The notes under the pieces: model-generated
Databases searched by the model: none
What the model saw: the letters and a program-made list of their open reading frames with translations, nothing else
What the model was told of the DNA's origin: nothing
IMG/VR virus record: IMGVR_UViG_3300008952_000006
Coordinates: 62,001 to 126,000 of that record
Reading direction: 5' to 3' (one strand)
DNA: 64,000 bases
Source: a virus
Position numbers and translations under genes: made by a program
Shown here: one piece after another, positions 12,946-59,381 of the stretch
Layout of the letters: every line of letters starts with the position of its first letter
How positions within the stretch are numbered: position 1 is the stretch's first letter

Positions 12946-12972
12946 TACTTTCTCCTGAACAATAAAGAGGCA

Positions 12973-12993
12973 CCCCCCAGGAAGCCTGGGGGG
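12973..12993 (-). terminator. perfect 9-bp GC hairpin after the major capsid gene
   Basis: CCCCCCAGG (12973-12981), loop AAG, CCTGGGGGG (12985-12993). In the minus-strand transcript it is followed by a weak T-rich run (CTCTTTATTG). It lies 20 bases past the capsid stop. It may reduce read-through or protect the capsid mRNA 3' end. A full intrinsic terminator is less likely because the T-run is poor. Confidence 0.55.
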
Positions 12994-13012
12994 ATACCTA
13001 AAATAACACGAC

Positions 13013-14233
13013 TTAGAACTGCGTAACCTGCGGGAAGGTCTGGCCTTCATCCACAAGGTGGTTACGAGCGCCGAGATCTTCCTCAGCGACAGGCAATCGG
13101 TCACGCTGCGTAGCTGCGTTGTTAGCGGGGGTAGTAAGCGGGTCAACAGAACCAGCATACAGCTCCAACTTACGAACACCGGCAACATTACCAATGTACA
13201 TGCCAATGTCTTCCCAAGCCTCAAACGAGATTCGGTTACGCTCTTTGTCAGCGTAGAACTTCGTCTTGTTGAGGAGCAAGAAGCCACCCAGATATTCAGG
13301 CGCTGTGAACGCATAAATATTACCTGGACGGAGGATGTCAGTTTTCAAAGTACGAACAAACTTACGGCCAATGACCGTGCTGTGCTTGTACCCGTCAACC
13401 ACATTCTCAGCAATGATCTTGTCGCCAAGGTCATTGTGCAACCACGCATTGATATCCTCGAAGTCAGTGTCGGTCAGCAGAAACTGATCGCACCGCATAC
13501 GAGAACCGCGAGTACCTGCGCCAACAGCGCTGCTACCCGTGAACGTTTGGAACAACGCAATCAGGTCCGCTTTGTCAACCGGTACAATTACCGCCTCATC
13601 GCAACCTGCGGCAGCGCCACCAACTGTCGATGGGAACAACGCAGCAGCTTTCACCTTGCCTACTTGAGCGGTAATGGTACCACCACCAGCGGGGTCAAGG
13701 TTAAACGCCGTGAACGCATCAGCGTCAGCATAGGTAGCACCGAACACAAGGCCCTGCGCATCCTGCTGCAATGACTGACAAGCCGACTCGACATGGGTCA
13801 AGAAGACACGGTCTTCAATCTCCTGAATGTCGTTGACGATATTACGCTTAATAATCTGCGTGATTGGCATCACATAGGCCATAAGCTCTTGTTCAGTTTG
13901 TTCAAAACGCTGCGAGCCAACCGTATGGAATGGTACTTCAAAGCGCGGGCCAGTGTAGTATCGAACCGTGGGTTGACCACGGAAAGACATACTCATAGCA
14001 CGGCTTGTTGGTTCCACTTCAACGATCTTAACAAGCGTATCGTGGTTTACACTGACCTGAAGGTCAGATCGGCTTACCGACTTCGGGGGGAGTACTTTGC
14101 GAGCAAAGCTTTCCTCACGCAGACGGTCTCGGATGTAATCGCCACCCAGGGCAGCAATTTTTTCTTTTCCAGCCTCGGTATCGAGCTTACTTACGAAAAG
14201 CTCGTTGAGGACGTCACTAGGTACACTAGACAT
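13013..14233 (-). CDS. major capsid protein, HK97 fold
   Basis: 406 residues. The order fits HK97-type coat proteins: an N-terminal helical arm with RDRLREESFARKVLPP, an E-loop region with strand pairs (VRYYTGPRFEVPFHTVGS), a long spine helix around residues 115-150 (IIKRNIVNDIQEIEDRVFL), and a P/A-domain ending with the strand set YLGGFLLLNKTKFYADKE and EAWEDIGMYIGNVAGVRKLE. The length is typical. GGAGG precedes the ATG. It lacks the KTA-type motif. A hairpin follows the gene, which may help its transcript accumulate. Confidence 0.8.
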   Translation of the reverse strand: MSSVPSDVLNELFVSKLDTEAGKEKIAALGGDYIRDRLREESFARKVLPPKSVSRSDLQVSVNHDTLVKIVEVEPTSRAMSMSFRGQPTVRYYTGPRFEVPFHTVGSQRFEQTEQELMAYVMPITQIIKRNIVNDIQEIEDRVFLTHVESACQSLQQDAQGLVFGATYADADAFTAFNLDPAGGGTITAQVGKVKAAALFPSTVGGAAAGCDEAVIVPVDKADLIALFQTFTGSSAVGAGTRGSRMRCDQFLLTDTDFEDINAWLHNDLGDKIIAENVVDGYKHSTVIGRKFVRTLKTDILRPGNIYAFTAPEYLGGFLLLNKTKFYADKERNRISFEAWEDIGMYIGNVAGVRKLELYAGSVDPLTTPANNAATQRDRLPVAEEDLGARNHLVDEGQTFPQVTQF

Positions 14234-20784: not shown

Positions 20785-21978
20785 TTAAACGACTCCTGGT
20801 CCTTGGGGCCCCTGGGGTCCGGGAGATCCCGGGGGCGCTGCGGCAGGTGGGCCCGCCATGCCCGGGCCAACAGGTGCGGGTGCGCCTGCAGGGGGTTGCG
20901 CGCCTTGCGGCGGCATCGCTCCCTCAGGCCCGGGCGGTGGCGGCGGTTGGGGAGCGCCAAATAATTGGGCTGCTGAAGATGACATATCGGGGCCTTTCAG
21001 GATAGCCAAAAGCTCCTGCATGCCCATCTGTGTTCTGACAACAGCCGCCTGTGCCATTTGAAGTTTCCCCGAGACGCTCTCAAGCTCTTGGGTTAGACCC
21101 GTAACTGGGTTTGACATCAGCATGCCCATCCCAAGCTTCTTAAGCTCCTCACCGTGCCCAAATTCAACTAAGCTTCCAACATGCTCACCAATAACGTTTA
21201 GTAGCCCTTCGGAAGCACCGCCAGCCTCAATTGCATAACCAATAATACCTGCGCTATTCCCGGCCCGAGAAGCCTCTTTGCACAGGTCCTTAAGAGCTGC
21301 CAGCTTGATGCAGAAGTGGTCGCCAAGAACTTCTTTTTCAGATTCAGCGTTTTTGTTCTCTGCGTGTAGGTCCAAAAATTCACGTGCGGCGTCCCTGGTG
21401 CCGGGGTTAACGTGAGGCTCGATACCAGCCTTCTTTTCTAGCGAGGCCCCGTAAGTGTTGAGGAATCCCTGAACCTGCTCTGGCGTGTAGTCTGGGTATG
21501 CCTGCTTTACGGCGTCCCTGGCTGCCACCCCCTGCTTAATAAGCGTGCGCACGGCGCTGACATTAGCGGTTTTTTCCATACCTGATCCAGTAAACACGTC
21601 CTCCAAATCAATGGCCTCTTGGCCAGCGATATACCGAAAGTGGCTAGGCACAGCAGGCCTGTTCACAGAGGCCGTCTTCTCTTTTGTGGGGGACAGGCTT
21701 TGAGCCACTGCTGTGGCCTCCGCCATGGGGAAAGTGATATTTTTATCGAAGCCAAGCTTAAACATGGTCGAAAAAGTATCATTATTTGCATACTCGGAGA
21801 CACGTTTAATCTGCTCGAGATTCAACCCAGACTCTTTGGCAAACTCTAGAATGGTGTCATTCAGCGGAGTCTTGTTCTGAACATACCGTACAGCAGCCTG
21901 CTTCCCCATGTGCCTAAGCTCCGAAGAAGAGAGACCAGCGTCTTCCTTGGTTAACAAATACTTTTCTAGTTCGTTCAT
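20785..21978 (-). CDS. helical virion protein with proline/glycine-rich tail
   Basis: 397 residues. Residues 1-320 are helical and contain MGKQA, KEKTA, MEKTA, LEKKA and IKLAA, all versions of the recurring motif. Residues 335-397 form a Pro/Gly/Ala-rich tail (PQPPPPPGPEGAMPPQG and later GSPGPQGPQGPG), which resembles collagen-like or disordered spacers. It is the gene right after terminase in the transcript, and its ATG overlaps the terminase stop (TAATG). It may be an internal head or portal-associated protein. No enzyme motif is visible. Confidence 0.5.
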   Translation of the reverse strand: MNELEKYLLTKEDAGLSSSELRHMGKQAAVRYVQNKTPLNDTILEFAKESGLNLEQIKRVSEYANNDTFSTMFKLGFDKNITFPMAEATAVAQSLSPTKEKTASVNRPAVPSHFRYIAGQEAIDLEDVFTGSGMEKTANVSAVRTLIKQGVAARDAVKQAYPDYTPEQVQGFLNTYGASLEKKAGIEPHVNPGTRDAAREFLDLHAENKNAESEKEVLGDHFCIKLAALKDLCKEASRAGNSAGIIGYAIEAGGASEGLLNVIGEHVGSLVEFGHGEELKKLGMGMLMSNPVTGLTQELESVSGKLQMAQAAVVRTQMGMQELLAILKGPDMSSSAAQLFGAPQPPPPPGPEGAMPPQGAQPPAGAPAPVGPGMAGPPAAAPPGSPGPQGPQGPGVV

Positions 21979-48557: not shown

Positions 48558-49553
48558 TTGGAGCAGAACGACTTACTGTCTGTGCTGCGACCATACATAT
48601 CCATAGCAGAGCATCAGGCTTCATCATCGTATAATGTAGCCGCTTACTGCCCCTTCCATAAAGGGGGTAGAGAATCTAAACCCTCATTTTATATCTATGT
48701 TGGTCCGCCAACGAGTGGCAAGAGGCCGGGAGCGGCCTTCTGCCACACCTGTAATGAGGGTTGGAGTTTTACGGGGCTACTTAAAAAGCTCGCAGTCCCC
48801 AACAAGATAATAGACAGCATAAGACAGCATGTTGACTATTCCGCACCGGAACCAAAAACACCACTTAAAATGGTGTTCTCGTGGGACGTATTACCGGAAG
48901 CTATTCTCGGTACGTTTTCTTACCTGCCAAAGAAGCTTATAGATGATGGGTTCACCACCGATACTCTCCTGAATTATGAGATAGGATTTGACCGTTCGCG
49001 GAAGAGAATCATATTCCCAATCCGGAATCATCACGGTGAACTCGTCGCTATCAGCGGGCGGACAATTTCTGGTCGGTGGCCGAGGTATAAGATCTATAAG
49101 AGCGAATTGGAGGAAGTTATTAACAACTATTCCTTTGATAAGAAAACTGTACTTTGGGGGTTAGAGAAATTCTACGAAACACGCATGTATACAGATACAA
49201 AGATTGACACACCTGTGGTAGTGTGTGAAGGTTTCAAGGCCGCGCTCTGGGTTGTGCAAAGTGGATACCCACACACAGTCGCACTGTTGGGCTCTTACCT
49301 GAGCAAGGAGCAGGAGATGTTGCTCTCTAGGGTTACAAACAACGTGGTGTTGTTCCTAGATAACGACGAGGCTGGCTGCAAGGCCACAGAGAAAATAGCG
49401 GATAACCAACTAGGAGGTGTCAGCATAAAGATAGCAAAATATAAGGACAACGATAAAAATAAATCGCCGGATGATTTGAATGAGCTTCAAGTAAAAGAAG
49501 CCATAACATCCGCAATAACACTAATAAACTGGAGGAGATCCTGTGAGTATTGA
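48558..49553 (+). CDS. DnaG-type primase
   Basis: 331 residues from TTG 48558, the only start near the Cys motif. Zinc site: CPFH (C31, H34) and CHTC (C62, C65), as in the DnaG N-terminal domain. TOPRIM core: VVVCEGFKAAL with E224 and LFLDNDEAG with D268 and D270. It lacks the long C-terminal helicase-binding domain of E. coli DnaG, a common phage form. An AGGGATC site precedes the start. It synthesises RNA primers next to the DnaB-type helicase, and the two genes are adjacent. Confidence 0.75.
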   Translation: MEQNDLLSVLRPYISIAEHQASSSYNVAAYCPFHKGGRESKPSFYIYVGPPTSGKRPGAAFCHTCNEGWSFTGLLKKLAVPNKIIDSIRQHVDYSAPEPKTPLKMVFSWDVLPEAILGTFSYLPKKLIDDGFTTDTLLNYEIGFDRSRKRIIFPIRNHHGELVAISGRTISGRWPRYKIYKSELEEVINNYSFDKKTVLWGLEKFYETRMYTDTKIDTPVVVCEGFKAALWVVQSGYPHTVALLGSYLSKEQEMLLSRVTNNVVLFLDNDEAGCKATEKIADNQLGGVSIKIAKYKDNDKNKSPDDLNELQVKEAITSAITLINWRRSCEY

Positions 49554-50673
49554 TTACGAAGAGTTTAAAAAATTACAAGCATCAAAACGAAGAAACCTAA
49601 TGAGTAAAGTGGGCAAAACCGGAAAGTCATCCGGTGGCGGCCAAGGCGGTGGGAGCAAGTACGAAACCCCACCATGGAAGCTCAGGCGAGAATATTTCAA
49701 GCCATCGATAGAGCAACCGACCAAGATTAGGATTATCCCTCAAAGCAATGGTGAGATTTGGTACCCATTTATGAGTAAGTGGGTTTCAACGGCCAAGGGA
49801 AAGCGACAAATTATCTCAAACGCCTGGAACGGGGAACGAGATATGCCCTGCGTTCTCTACTACTACGCCCTTGAGGAATCTAAAGCGGACTTTCTCGCGT
49901 CGGAGCAAGTGGCAACAACCGTGTTGGTCTTAGAGGATTTTTACAAAGTTCCCAAGGTGTCAGCCAAGGGTACCGAGTATCACCTTTTCGAGCGCAGCCT
50001 CGGGGTTGATAAACATGGTCGTAGCTTGGACCACGTGTCAAGACAAGACCAGGAAAAAGTATTCGGTCGAAAGCTGCACTGGTCCATGTGGCCTACGCAG
50101 CAAAGAAACCTGATGACCACCCTCCAAGGGCTCACTGAGAAGTGTGCTCATTGTGGTGAAGGTGAGATTAGCGTCTACGCGTACCAATGTACGGACTGTG
50201 GCGAAATGATCGCCAATCATAAGGAAGAGCCAATCGACCGGAACTCCGAGCAAGTACTACAGAATGAGTCTGTGGCCTGCCCGGGTTGTGACACTCGTAT
50301 GATCGCTAAGCAAATATATGAGTGTGTTAAGCAGGACGGTTACAAAGGTAACTGGGTGCATGGTTGCGACAACCCCTTGAAGGTGTCGCTGAATGAGCCC
50401 TTAGACCTTGTAATACGTGCTGTGCCCGCCGGTAAGTCAACCGCCATAGAGGTGCTCAGTTTCGCACCGGCTGACATGCAAGCCACCGAGTCACTGCCTA
50501 ACTTCTTGACGGCTCCATTCGAATTCGATCAATTTTTCGGAAAGATGGACCTAGAAGAACAAGCAACTTCGATGGGTGTAGAGATGCCATTTGGCGCAGG
50601 GGATCAGCAGATCATTGATGACTTCTTCACGGCTAGTCCGAACGACGAAGACGAAGATAGCATCCCCTTTTAG
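49543..50673 (+). CDS. ssb: single-stranded DNA-binding protein with zinc sites
   Basis: 376 residues from GTG 49543 (GGAGGAGATCCT upstream). The acidic C-terminus ends DEDEDSIPF, the SSB-type tip that recruits other replication proteins. The N-terminal region is basic and Gly-rich (SSGGGQGGGS). An OB-like beta region lies at about 55-190. Two four-Cys sites follow: C201-C204/C216-C219 and C246-C249 with later Cys. Zinc sites are found in gp32-like SSBs such as T4 gp32. It overlaps the primase gene by 11 bases, so the replication genes are tightly coupled. Confidence 0.7.
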   Translation: MSIDYEEFKKLQASKRRNLMSKVGKTGKSSGGGQGGGSKYETPPWKLRREYFKPSIEQPTKIRIIPQSNGEIWYPFMSKWVSTAKGKRQIISNAWNGERDMPCVLYYYALEESKADFLASEQVATTVLVLEDFYKVPKVSAKGTEYHLFERSLGVDKHGRSLDHVSRQDQEKVFGRKLHWSMWPTQQRNLMTTLQGLTEKCAHCGEGEISVYAYQCTDCGEMIANHKEEPIDRNSEQVLQNESVACPGCDTRMIAKQIYECVKQDGYKGNWVHGCDNPLKVSLNEPLDLVIRAVPAGKSTAIEVLSFAPADMQATESLPNFLTAPFEFDQFFGKMDLEEQATSMGVEMPFGAGDQQIIDDFFTASPNDEDEDSIPF

Positions 50674-50686
50674 ATAGCTTGAACCC

Positions 50687-50822
50687 TTAGGTGAGGGGGA
50701 AGCGCCAGTCTCCGGTCCCAGGATTTCCTGCGAGGTATGCGAGCCTCGACTTTTACTGGGAAAGGTAAAAATTAACTCTATCTAGTCAGCAGAGTTGATG
50801 GGCAGGCGCTCCCCCCACCTAA
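50687..50822 (+). ncRNA. structured RNA with closing stem and four hairpins
   Basis: P1: 50687-50706 pairs with 50805-50822, 18 base pairs with only two single-A bulges (50694 and 50701). Inside lie H1 (50719-50730, loop AUUU), H2 (50731-50748, stem CGAGG/CCTCG), H3 (50751-50770, stem TTTTAC/GTAAAA) and H4 (50772-50798, stem TTAACTCT/AGAGTTGA). The loop TGGGA of H3 (50757-50761) can pair with TCCCA (50716-50720), giving a pseudoknot. One T-G pair in H4 fits plus-strand RNA only. It lies between the SSB and DNA polymerase genes, 10 bases before the polymerase ribosome site. It could be a riboswitch-like leader or a small RNA. No known family is recognised. Confidence 0.7.
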
Positions 50823-50840
50823 TTTATTACAAAAGGAGAG

Positions 50841-52733
50841 ATGATGGGAATGTTTACAGCGCTCCCTGTGCCAGTTTGTGTAAGAACACCAGAGCAGGCA
50901 CAGGTAGTATTAGAGGAGTATAAAGATACAAGCATCTTAGCATTCGATACAGAGACAACTGGTCTCGACAGGCCAAGGGACAGAGCAGTTGTTCTGGCCC
51001 TTAGCGACGGAAAAACAAGATATGCAATCTACGCGGAAGTTATACCCTACTTCAAAGAATTCTTAGAGAACCCAGAATTAAAATTAATCGCGCACAACGC
51101 TAACTATGACTGCTGGATGCTGTTAAACGTTGGCATAGACGTTAATAGATACTCGTTACGAACACATTACCGTGTTCTCGATACTATGGTCATGCACGCG
51201 CTAGTGGACGACACTAAGTCACACAAGCTAAAGTCCCTCGCAAAAGAGTACCTAGGCATTGACATGGTCTCCTTCAAGAGCGTGTTCGGCTCACAGATGC
51301 GTAAACGGACACTGCACGACCTGCTGCTTGATCCTGAAAATGAGGATATTGTGACCAACTACGCATCACTAGATGCTTACGCCACATTCAAACTATTCCT
51401 TGCGCTTAGAGAAGAATTAAAGGAGATGGAGACAGGCCTGGAAGAATACCCAACCCTCTGGGAATACTTCTACAAAACCGAAGTCCCCTTCACCAGAATA
51501 CTCTGGGAGATGGAGCGTAATGGGGTGCGGATAGACGAGGAGGCCCTCCTTGAGCAAGCCCCCCTTATAGAGAGTGAACTTCTCGGCATACAGAAATGGT
51601 TCGGTCGGACCATGAATAAACTATACGTTAATCTCAACTCTGGTAAGGAGATGGGTGCATTTTTCTTCACCCAGCTGGGCTACAAGCCCGTGTCTTATAC
51701 GGAGAAGGGAAGCCCCCAGCTAAATGCACCAACCCTTGAGCGCTGGGCTAGGGGTGGTTGTGAGTACTCGGAGAAGCTCTTGCGTTATCGTGACCAAGAC
51801 AAGAAGCTATCCACGTATATAACCAACCTCCTTAAACGCATCCACGTAGATAAGCGTATCCACGCCACCTTCAATCAAACGGGGGCGCGAACCGGAAGGC
51901 TGAGTTCATCGGAGCCAAACCTGCAGAATCAGCCCCCCTACATACGGGGAGCATACATTGCAGAGGGGCGGTCACGCCTACTGGCTAGGGACTTTGCACA
52001 ATTGGAGATGCGCATCCTAGCGCATTTCTCAGGAGACTCGTCGTTAATCACAGCGATTAAAAGCGGACAAGATGTCCACTCAAGTACCGCATCAAAAATG
52101 TTCAAGGTTCCGTATGAGGATATTATGGAGGCTAGAAGAAAAGACGATGCGGATGAACCAGTAAGCCCCTACGAGAAAAAGCTCCTTACCCATCGGAAAG
52201 GTGCCAAAGCCATTAACTTTGGCTTGATGTATGGGCAGGGCTCTGGGAGGCTGTCGGCTACACTTGGGTGTTCTTTAGACGAAGCCAAGCTTCTAATAAA
52301 GCAGTACTTCGCAGCATTCCCTAAAATCACAAAGTACTTCCGTCAAGCTATCAAGGAAGCAACCGCAGACGGCTACTGCGCCACGATATTGGGTCGGCGC
52401 AGACAAGTGCCGGGGCTCAGGTCAAATATTAGTAGTGATAGAGGAGACGCTGAACGGAAGGTGAAGAACTCGCCTATTCAGGGCAGTGCTGCGGATATTA
52501 CTAAGATGGCCATGATCCGACTTTGGGAAGACCCGCTTGTCGAGGCATCTGGGGCCAAGATGGCCATCCAGGTTCACGATGAAATCGTTTTCGAGGTGCC
52601 TGAAGAGTTTGTGGACGACGAAGAATTTAATACGCGCATTGAGGAATTGATGGCGCACCCCTTCTCTTTTGAGTTGGCGGTTCCGCTAGAGACGTCAGGG
52701 AAGTACGGGAGCAACTGGGCGGAGTGTAAGTAA
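50841..52733 (+). CDS. polA: family A DNA polymerase with 3'-5' exonuclease
   Basis: 630 residues. Exonuclease: DTETTG (D36, E38), HNANYDCWML and YASLDAYATFK. Polymerase: motif A RDFAQLEMRILAH with D384, motif B RKGAKAINFGLMYGQG (452-467), motif C QVHDEIVFE with H579 and D580. The 5'-nuclease domain of bacterial Pol I is missing, as in T7-like phage polymerases. The residue after KAIN is Phe, as in E. coli Pol I, which usually means strong discrimination against dideoxynucleotides. A clean AAAAGGAGAG site lies just downstream of the structured RNA. Probably the phage's main replicative polymerase. Confidence 0.88.
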   Translation: MMGMFTALPVPVCVRTPEQAQVVLEEYKDTSILAFDTETTGLDRPRDRAVVLALSDGKTRYAIYAEVIPYFKEFLENPELKLIAHNANYDCWMLLNVGIDVNRYSLRTHYRVLDTMVMHALVDDTKSHKLKSLAKEYLGIDMVSFKSVFGSQMRKRTLHDLLLDPENEDIVTNYASLDAYATFKLFLALREELKEMETGLEEYPTLWEYFYKTEVPFTRILWEMERNGVRIDEEALLEQAPLIESELLGIQKWFGRTMNKLYVNLNSGKEMGAFFFTQLGYKPVSYTEKGSPQLNAPTLERWARGGCEYSEKLLRYRDQDKKLSTYITNLLKRIHVDKRIHATFNQTGARTGRLSSSEPNLQNQPPYIRGAYIAEGRSRLLARDFAQLEMRILAHFSGDSSLITAIKSGQDVHSSTASKMFKVPYEDIMEARRKDDADEPVSPYEKKLLTHRKGAKAINFGLMYGQGSGRLSATLGCSLDEAKLLIKQYFAAFPKITKYFRQAIKEATADGYCATILGRRRQVPGLRSNISSDRGDAERKVKNSPIQGSAADITKMAMIRLWEDPLVEASGAKMAIQVHDEIVFEVPEEFVDDEEFNTRIEELMAHPFSFELAVPLETSGKYGSNWAECK

Positions 52734-52804: not shown

Positions 52805-52981
52805 ATGGAGGACACAGAAGAAGCGATGCCAGATAGTTGCTACAGGGAATTAGACGAGAACGAAGAAAAGGAGTTCAGGAAATGGGCCAGGGACAACTAT
52901 ATTTCAGGAGACCCAGTAAAAGCCGTTTGGCACCCAGTGGTGCGAAACGAGTGCTCTATTATAGATAATGAATCGACGTAA
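52805..52981 (+). CDS. 58-residue small acidic protein
   Basis: Starts MEDTEEAMPDSCYRELDENE, then EKEFRKWARDNYISGDPVKA and ends NESTstop. GGGGAG lies 4-5 bases upstream. It has an acidic first half and a WARDNY-type aromatic patch. It overlaps the next gene by 14 bases. A short hairpin (AAAGGAATGCCTTT) precedes it at about 52737. No family is recognised. Confidence 0.5.
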   Translation: MEDTEEAMPDSCYRELDENEEKEFRKWARDNYISGDPVKAVWHPVVRNECSIIDNEST

Positions 52982-53234
52982 ACCATGGTTTTTCTACGTA
53001 GTAGAATGCTCTGATCAGTCTCTCTATGCCGGTATTACTACTAATATAGAGAGACGGGTCAGCGAGCATAACAAGAGTCCGCGCGGGGCCAAGTATACAA
53101 GAAGCCGCAGACCTGTCCACCTAGTGATGTCCAGAAAATTCCCAAGTAAATCGGGAGCCCTAAAACATGAATACAAATTCAAGCGGCTTACTAAAAAAGG
53201 TAAATTGGCCGAAATTCGGAGACAGCATGGATGA
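52968..53234 (+). CDS. GIY-YIG nuclease-like protein (UPF0213 type)
   Basis: 88 residues. FFYVVECSDQSLYAGITTN then IERRVSEHN matches the UPF0213/YhbQ form of GIY-YIG domain: (Y/F)YVLxCxDGSLYxGxTxxLxxRxxxHN. The residues that follow are R-rich (YTRSRRPVHLV). GIY-YIG domains are DNA nucleases or related proteins. The catalytic Tyr and Gly/Arg pattern is recognisable but activity is uncertain. It overlaps genes on both sides, so it is a compact part of the operon. Confidence 0.75.
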   Translation: MNRRKPWFFYVVECSDQSLYAGITTNIERRVSEHNKSPRGAKYTRSRRPVHLVMSRKFPSKSGALKHEYKFKRLTKKGKLAEIRRQHG

Positions 53235-58928: not shown

Positions 58929-58959
58929 CTGCCCGTACCCTCCTTCGGGCCAGCAGGTG

Positions 58960-59004
58960 ACCCCTTGTATGCGTATTACTACGCATATAGGGGGTCTTTT
59001 TTTA
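58960..59004 (+). terminator. strong intrinsic terminator of the replication operon
   Basis: Stem GACCCC..TATGCGTA (58960-58976), loop TTAC, TACGCATA..GGGGTC (58981-58997), then TTTTTTT (58998-59004). About 14 base pairs with an internal mismatch zone. A smaller hairpin (GCCCG/CGGGC, 58932-58951) comes first. It ends the long plus-strand operon. Confidence 0.9.
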
Positions 59005-59116: not shown

Positions 59117-59332
59117 ATGGCTATTTCAATTTTCAAAAAGCAGACCAAAAAACCAAACCAGATTGAACAATTCGGGAAGGCAGTGGGGGGCCAAGTAGCG
59201 GTGATGATCGCCGCTAGCGCGGTATTGACACTGATCGATACAGGGGTGTCCTTCGCTAGCCAAAAGGTAAACGACCTTAGGGCGAAGCGAGCGGCGGCTA
59301 AGGCCGAAGAGGCTGCTCCGACTGCTGCGTAA
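59117..59332 (+). CDS. small single-span membrane protein in its own transcription unit
   Basis: 71 residues. A basic N-terminus (FKKQTKKPNQ) is followed by a span at about residues 22-42 (GGQVAVMIAASAVLTLIDTG) and a charged Ala-rich C-terminal helix (LRAKRAAAKAEEAAPTAA). AGGGAG precedes the ATG. The gene is flanked by terminators on both sides, with a promoter-like element and leader hairpin, so it is expressed alone. Role is unknown. It may be a membrane-acting early or lysis-related factor. Confidence 0.6.
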   Translation: MAISIFKKQTKKPNQIEQFGKAVGGQVAVMIAASAVLTLIDTGVSFASQKVNDLRAKRAAAKAEEAAPTAA

Positions 59333-59349
59333 GCAGCAAGTCGAGAAAG

Positions 59350-59381
59350 TAGGGGACGCGAAAGCGTACCCCTATTTTTTT
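59350..59381. terminator. GAAA-tetraloop terminator between convergent genes
   Basis: TAGGGG-ACGC (59350-59359), loop GAAA, then GCGT and CCCCTA (59364-59374), followed by seven Ts. It ends the plus-strand unit. The T-run overlaps the stop codon of the minus-strand fibre gene. On the minus strand the T-run is weak, so it may act mostly in one direction. Confidence 0.85.

Follow-up and report, generated by a model that had tools for sequence, protein, structure and literature searches.

The gap between the gene for an SSB-like protein and that for a family A DNA polymerase in the replication cluster of an uncultured phage holds an RNA hairpin that is a genuine, selected structure, ordinary in kind. 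Relatives conserve a strong hairpin shortly past the upstream stop codon, whatever its sequence, and this is the signature of an attenuator, a terminator or an mRNA 3′-end stabiliser. The element is probably (at roughly 0.7) an intercistronic stem-loop located in the 3′-flanking region of the SSB-like gene, which would hold the output of that gene above the output of the polymerase. A new class of RNA is not indicated, and the element most likely belongs to a known type of fixed hairpin control.

Genomic context

The window analyzed here is a stretch of 64,000 nucleotides that forms part of a virus record of 173,034 bases. At about 43 kb of the window begins a plus-strand replication cluster that encodes a DEAD/ResIII helicase, a DnaB-like helicase, a DnaG-type primase, the SSB-like protein, the family A DNA polymerase and a RecA/UvsX-like recombinase. 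The SSB-like gene (49543-50673, plus strand) is an open reading frame for a protein of 376 amino acids, with zinc-ribbon cysteines and the acidic C-terminus DEDEDSIPF. Its designation as a putative SSB is drawn from its position, its cysteine clusters and its acidic DxDSIPF tail. The cysteine clusters are invariant across an alignment of 19 relatives, most of which also have an acidic C-terminal tail whose final residue is aromatic, and searches of Pfam, PHROG and PDB gave no match. The protein possibly represents an undescribed SSB family.

Downstream, after a gap of 167 nt that contains the hairpin, lies the gene for the family A DNA polymerase with its 3′-5′ exonuclease domain (50841-52733, plus strand; Pfam DNA_pol_A 1e-101, exonuclease 4e-24). 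This reading frame begins MMGMF (50841-50846) and the aligned relatives begin MGMF, which suggests that translation may begin at the second ATG (50844); from its better spacing to the ribosome-binding site (RBS), this second ATG is the likelier start. The RBS itself, AAAAGGAG (50831-50838, plus strand), lies outside the hairpin. A scan for sigma-70 promoters located none in the gap, without any excess relative to shuffled sequences. Between the polymerase and recombinase genes is a small free-standing GIY-YIG endonuclease gene (52968-53234, plus strand; Pfam 1e-17). Elsewhere in the window, a stretch of 79% G+C on the minus strand (20785-20940) codes for the collagen-like, Gly/Pro/Ala/Gln-rich C-terminal tail of a minus-strand protein.

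Fold of the element in the window

The RNA of 50687-50822 has a minimum free energy (MFE) of -65.6 kcal/mol, compared with -42.9 ± 3.75 kcal/mol for shuffled versions (z = -6.05), and none of 200 shuffles folded as well. An earlier note on this DNA had described an 18-bp closing stem with two bulged adenines, and the RNA fold returns precisely this stem as segments of 7, 6 and 5 bp interrupted by A50694 and A50701, with the 5′ arm at 50687-50706 and the 3′ arm at 50805-50822 of the plus strand. When this stretch is folded by itself the pairs run from 50688-50821, the outermost pair (50687-50822) appearing only when the whole gap is folded. The closing pairs all have probabilities of at least 0.95, save the one adjoining the second bulge, whose value of 0.498 reflects the interchangeability of A50700 and A50701. 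The stretch holds no credible gene, as the same note had said: no open reading frame of at least 40 amino acids lies within the hairpin, and a single 42-residue frame clips its 3′ end. The note's further claim that G-U pairs suit the plus strand alone has the direction right, the antisense RNA being less stable (-57.6 versus -65.6 kcal/mol), but it is too strong for an antisense z of -4.5. The element occurs once in its own genome. When the window was scanned in overlapping 140-nt segments at 25-base steps, the element ranked 16th at the off-register position sampled, and the stronger scores include terminators at 59301 and 58951.

The stem encloses a branched, lineage-specific apex of 98 nt (50707-50804, plus strand). 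Folded by itself the apex has a z of -1.76, with 27 of 500 shuffles as good (-1.64 on repeat); being non-significant alone, it leaves the closing stem as the striking part of the element. Four internal hairpins back to back had been proposed here. Two of them, H2 (CGAGGU AUGCGA GCCUCG, 50731-50748, plus strand) and H4 (50771-50799, plus strand), are well predicted, with pair probabilities of 0.96-1.0 and 0.93-1.0, respectively, whereas H1 (CAGGAUUUCCUG) and H3 (UUUUAC..GUAAAA) have probabilities of about 0.01. With the pseudoknot left out, this nested model is 10 kcal/mol worse than the MFE structure and has an ensemble probability of 3e-9. The strands of the suggested TGGGA/TCCCA pseudoknot are indeed complementary, but in the MFE structure they form an ordinary nested helix, UCCCAG/CUGGGA (50716-50721 with 50756-50761, plus strand), that encloses H2. 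The exact 19-mer of H3 was absent from the viral contigs searched. Among the relatives neither conservation nor covariation of the apex was detected, even in the closest (polymerase 83% identical), and the check for compensatory changes in the apex hairpins went against them, their sequence and shape turning over with no counterpart in L010, L014 and others. The branched apex is most simply viewed as a lineage-specific elongation of the loop without a function of its own.

The hairpin at the same gap in relatives

Relatives were gathered by searching viral contigs with the polymerase, both as a single sequence and as an alignment (42-83% identity), and the SSB-like query gave the same contigs. 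The sample comprises 18 relatives with 17 distinct gaps, which together with the window make 19 loci with a gap; the near-identical L016 and L018 were counted once, as were the duplicates L107/L108, L111/L112 and L012/L026, and the collections searched may omit very near relatives of the record. The boundary of the SSB-like and polymerase genes carries a strong hairpin in 18 of these 19 loci, the window included, and the structure occupies most of the gap; in L111 it is weak (z of -0.5 to -1.2). Free energies lie between about -28 and -66 kcal/mol, and most of the closing helices are 10-23 bp long, values that poorly describe the main hairpin of L111, L113 and L116, for which the automatic choice of domain took in flanking bases.

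Typical gap z-scores in the relatives are -3 to -6. By comparison, 25 other same-strand gaps of 40-260 nt from the same loci have a median z of -0.56, and one of the 25 falls below -3. The crude gene caller used for this comparison recovered 14 of the gaps between the SSB-like and polymerase genes, most of them again with z of -3 to -6. The score of L003 in this set (-1.0) is an artefact of truncation by the caller; its full gap, listed as L012, scores -4.8. The gap of L109 has a z of only -1.6 because it is very GC-rich, yet it contains a perfect 12-bp stem.

The hairpin follows the upstream stop codon closely. By automatic measurement the spacing is 5-17 nt in 14 of the 19 loci and 48 nt in L016/L018, and the value of 0 in L111, L113 and L116 reflects the flanking bases drawn into their folds. 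From the end of the hairpin to the polymerase start there are usually about 20 nt, in the window as elsewhere, and the RBS is free in most loci. This placement near the upstream stop, with the RBS free, indicates a 3′ element of the upstream gene. Where the two genes abut or overlap, as in the more distant relatives L115, L117, L118 and L021, no hairpin was found. The polymerases of L118 and L119 (3001-5796) each carry an in-frame insert of about 280-300 amino acids after ARDYC in the polymerase domain; the insert matches Pfam Intein_splicing, Hint_2 and HNH_3 near the cut-off, and from these matches it resembles an intein that bears an HNH endonuclease motif.

The expectation that the element matches no known RNA family was borne out in Rfam, where no match reached the gathering threshold and those below it were at chance level. 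Among named phages, DNA similarity gave only two chance matches of 34 nt, and tblastn with the SSB-like protein gave none. Bacterial genome contigs searched with the polymerase alignment were likewise without a match.

Turnover of sequence and retention of pairing

The sequence, length and apex of the hairpin turn over completely among the relatives. Nucleotide identity of the gap in pairs with the window is 0.29-0.61, compared with 0.32-0.54 for shuffled sequences, and that of the flanking genes is 0.67-0.74. The closing stem could be compared in the three most alike loci, the window, L010 and L014, where the pairs were aligned by hand because the MAFFT alignment of the arms was out of structural register; the arms were checked by script against the sequences. 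In this alignment four compensated double changes (o5, o6, o9 and i3) preserve the stem, so that the check for compensatory changes came out in favor of the stem. At o5 and o6 the window has G-C where the others have U-A and A-U, pairs o9 and i3 are A-U in L014 and G-C in the other two, and o3 is mismatched or bulged in two of the three sequences. Over short times the element can be held fixed, as L016 and L018 indicate: their gaps differ at a single position out of 118 nt, which is not in the hairpin, and their genes differ by 6-7%. Across the sample the sense RNA is more stable than its complement in 15 of 18 gaps, by a mean of -6.2 kcal/mol over all 18 (one-sided sign test, ~0.004), a bias that points to RNA and not DNA.

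U tracts and terminator likeness

In the window the closing stem is followed by the short U-rich tail UUUAUU (50823-50828, plus strand); five of the first 8 nt past the stem are U. This tail, which follows AA and the A-U-rich base of the stem, is a possible weak termination tract. U-rich tracts, which give the hairpin the look of a terminator, are present in about seven lineages (L011, L013, L015, L016/L018, L106, L116 and, displaced, L017) and missing in about nine. Since roughly half of the lineages are without them, termination alone cannot be the common mechanism. A terminator scan of the gap reported H2 only, as the long closing stem exceeds the loop limit of the scan.

The phage uses U-tract terminators elsewhere: two typical examples (58959-58996 and ~59345-59381, plus strand) end the plus-strand cluster before a convergent large minus-strand gene. 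On the minus strand, a strong hairpin of the type AGGTATCCCCCCAGG-CTT-CCTGGGGGGTGCCT followed by CTTTATTG (12968-12999) lies 13 nt past the stop codon of a gene at 13013-14233. Its tail is CUUUAUUG and its layout is the same as that of the hairpin before the polymerase gene. The gene that it follows is possibly that of the major capsid protein, a guess from its place with no family match. A terminator-like hairpin is also common after other phage genes that end in DDSIPF and whose downstream DNA is unrelated, for instance in the L069 and L092 groups, in a comparison where some of the other low z-values may lie in coding sequence. Both parallels lend support to the stem-loop reading of the element.

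Function of the element

As an intercistronic stem-loop, the hairpin could act by either of two routes. It would block 3′-5′ exonucleases and thereby stabilise the upstream mRNA, and/or it would stop a fraction of RNA polymerases, which would suit the forms with a U tract. By either route a protein needed in stoichiometric amounts would be made in excess of the catalytic polymerase. The two genes are co-directional, the structure lies near the upstream stop codon, and both its position and its presence as a structure are kept in the relatives, L111 being weak; a stable stem is the property that they have in common, which fits protection of an mRNA 3′ end. Against this reading, the 98-nt apex is larger than a stabiliser needs, and L111 and the relatives with abutting genes depart from the pattern.

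The hairpin may instead be a putative target of RNase III, at which the polycistronic message would be cut between the SSB-like and polymerase genes, as its long, near-perfect and sequence-independent duplex (12-23 bp, in many cases with small bulges inside) would allow. The length of the duplex is no more than compatible with such a site, and the short hairpins of L011, L015 and L116, with their tiny loops and U tracts, resemble terminators instead, which makes the proposal rather unlikely; it overlaps with the stem-loop reading in that hairpin-capped cut ends would also stabilise the upstream mRNA. Alternatively, the SSB-like protein or the polymerase may bind the structure as a translational operator and repress its own translation or that of the polymerase. 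The replication-gene context and the hairpin end about 20 nt before the polymerase start are in keeping with such control, and in T4 both gp43 and gp32 bind structures upstream of their own starts, the former a hairpin about 40 nt upstream and the latter a pseudoknot 67 nt upstream (PMC3014915). Given this autoregulation through leader RNA structures in T4, the leader suggested by the earlier note was a reasonable idea. The gp43 operators of T4 and RB69 nonetheless share their top 10 bases (PMC3014915), whereas the relatives here share neither loop nor stem sequence, the RBS is outside the structure, and the polymerase is of family A and not of the T4 type. An operator is consequently an unlikely explanation.

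A new structured regulatory RNA, either a riboswitch-like leader or a free-standing sRNA, would draw on the branched apex and pseudoknot; it is consistent with the Rfam result, the large branched shape, the complementarity of UCCCA and UGGGA and the branched apices predicted also for L014 and L027. Taken alone, however, the apex does not go beyond shuffled sequences in the window (z of about -1.7), L010 (-0.44) or L027 (-0.92), with L014 (-2.1) and L017 (-2.7) as a partial exception somewhat beyond them, and its sequence and shape are not shared. With H1 and H3 at about 1% and several relatives having only a tiny loop, such an RNA is very unlikely. Of the earlier suggestion of a regulatory leader or stand-alone RNA, what stands is a selected sense-strand structure absent from Rfam; the ligand-binding leader and the free-standing RNA find no support in an apex that is unconserved and no better than chance. 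A riboswitch or conserved RNA family is likewise unsupported, Rfam being unmatched and the apex without conservation or covariation. It is a distinctly long shot that this position is a dedicated, fast-evolving control site where each lineage has settled on its own structure, whether terminator, plain hairpin or branched fold, and that here the branched apex, with its UCCCA/UGGGA contact, came to adjust the output of the polymerase by sensing, for instance, unbound SSB-like protein or polymerase. Finally, the inverted repeat lies close to replication genes, as would a DNA-level element (a cruciform or single-strand replication origin) that is merely read as RNA, but the greater stability of the sense RNA, the lack of a shared sequence for an initiator to bind and the short spacing to the upstream stop codon render this extremely improbable.

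For the intercistronic stem-loop, the pattern among relatives implies that selection retains the presence of a strong hairpin at this place and not any particular one, as neighbors with genes about 70% identical have unrelated hairpins in the gap. Such elements escape both sequence and covariance-model searches, and Rfam finds none of them; positional folding scans are therefore needed. If the stoichiometry reading is true, the element represents a simple, recurring way for phages to keep the SSB-like protein above the polymerase.

Comparison with known systems

Intrinsic (Rho-independent) terminators share with the element a GC-rich stem and, in about seven relatives, a U-rich tail, but about nine relatives have no real U tract and the window has only UUUAUU after AA. 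The operators of T4 genes 43 and 32 are similar in being RNA structures that precede the gene for a phage DNA polymerase or SSB; they differ in having a conserved loop sequence and in involving the RBS, neither of which was found here, where the polymerase is of family A. In the malE and Rhodobacter puf mRNAs an intergenic structure follows the upstream gene (PMC5927463). The stabilising stem-loops of malE-malF and puf are alike in requiring no U tract and in lying directly behind the upstream gene of an operon, the one needed in larger amounts (PMC5927463), whereas the present element stands among phage replication genes, has a larger, branched apex, and is a putative stabiliser of its upstream mRNA. 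In clostridial transporter operons internal terminators set the stoichiometry of the products (PMC9045158). These terminators and the stem-loops of selective RNA processing and stabilisation are likewise of varied type and U content, and across related operons they separate an abundant upstream product from its partners (PMC9045158; also PMC8219983 and PMC4423207). The clostridial operons are bacterial and their termination has been measured, in contrast to the phage element, which is known from sequence alone.
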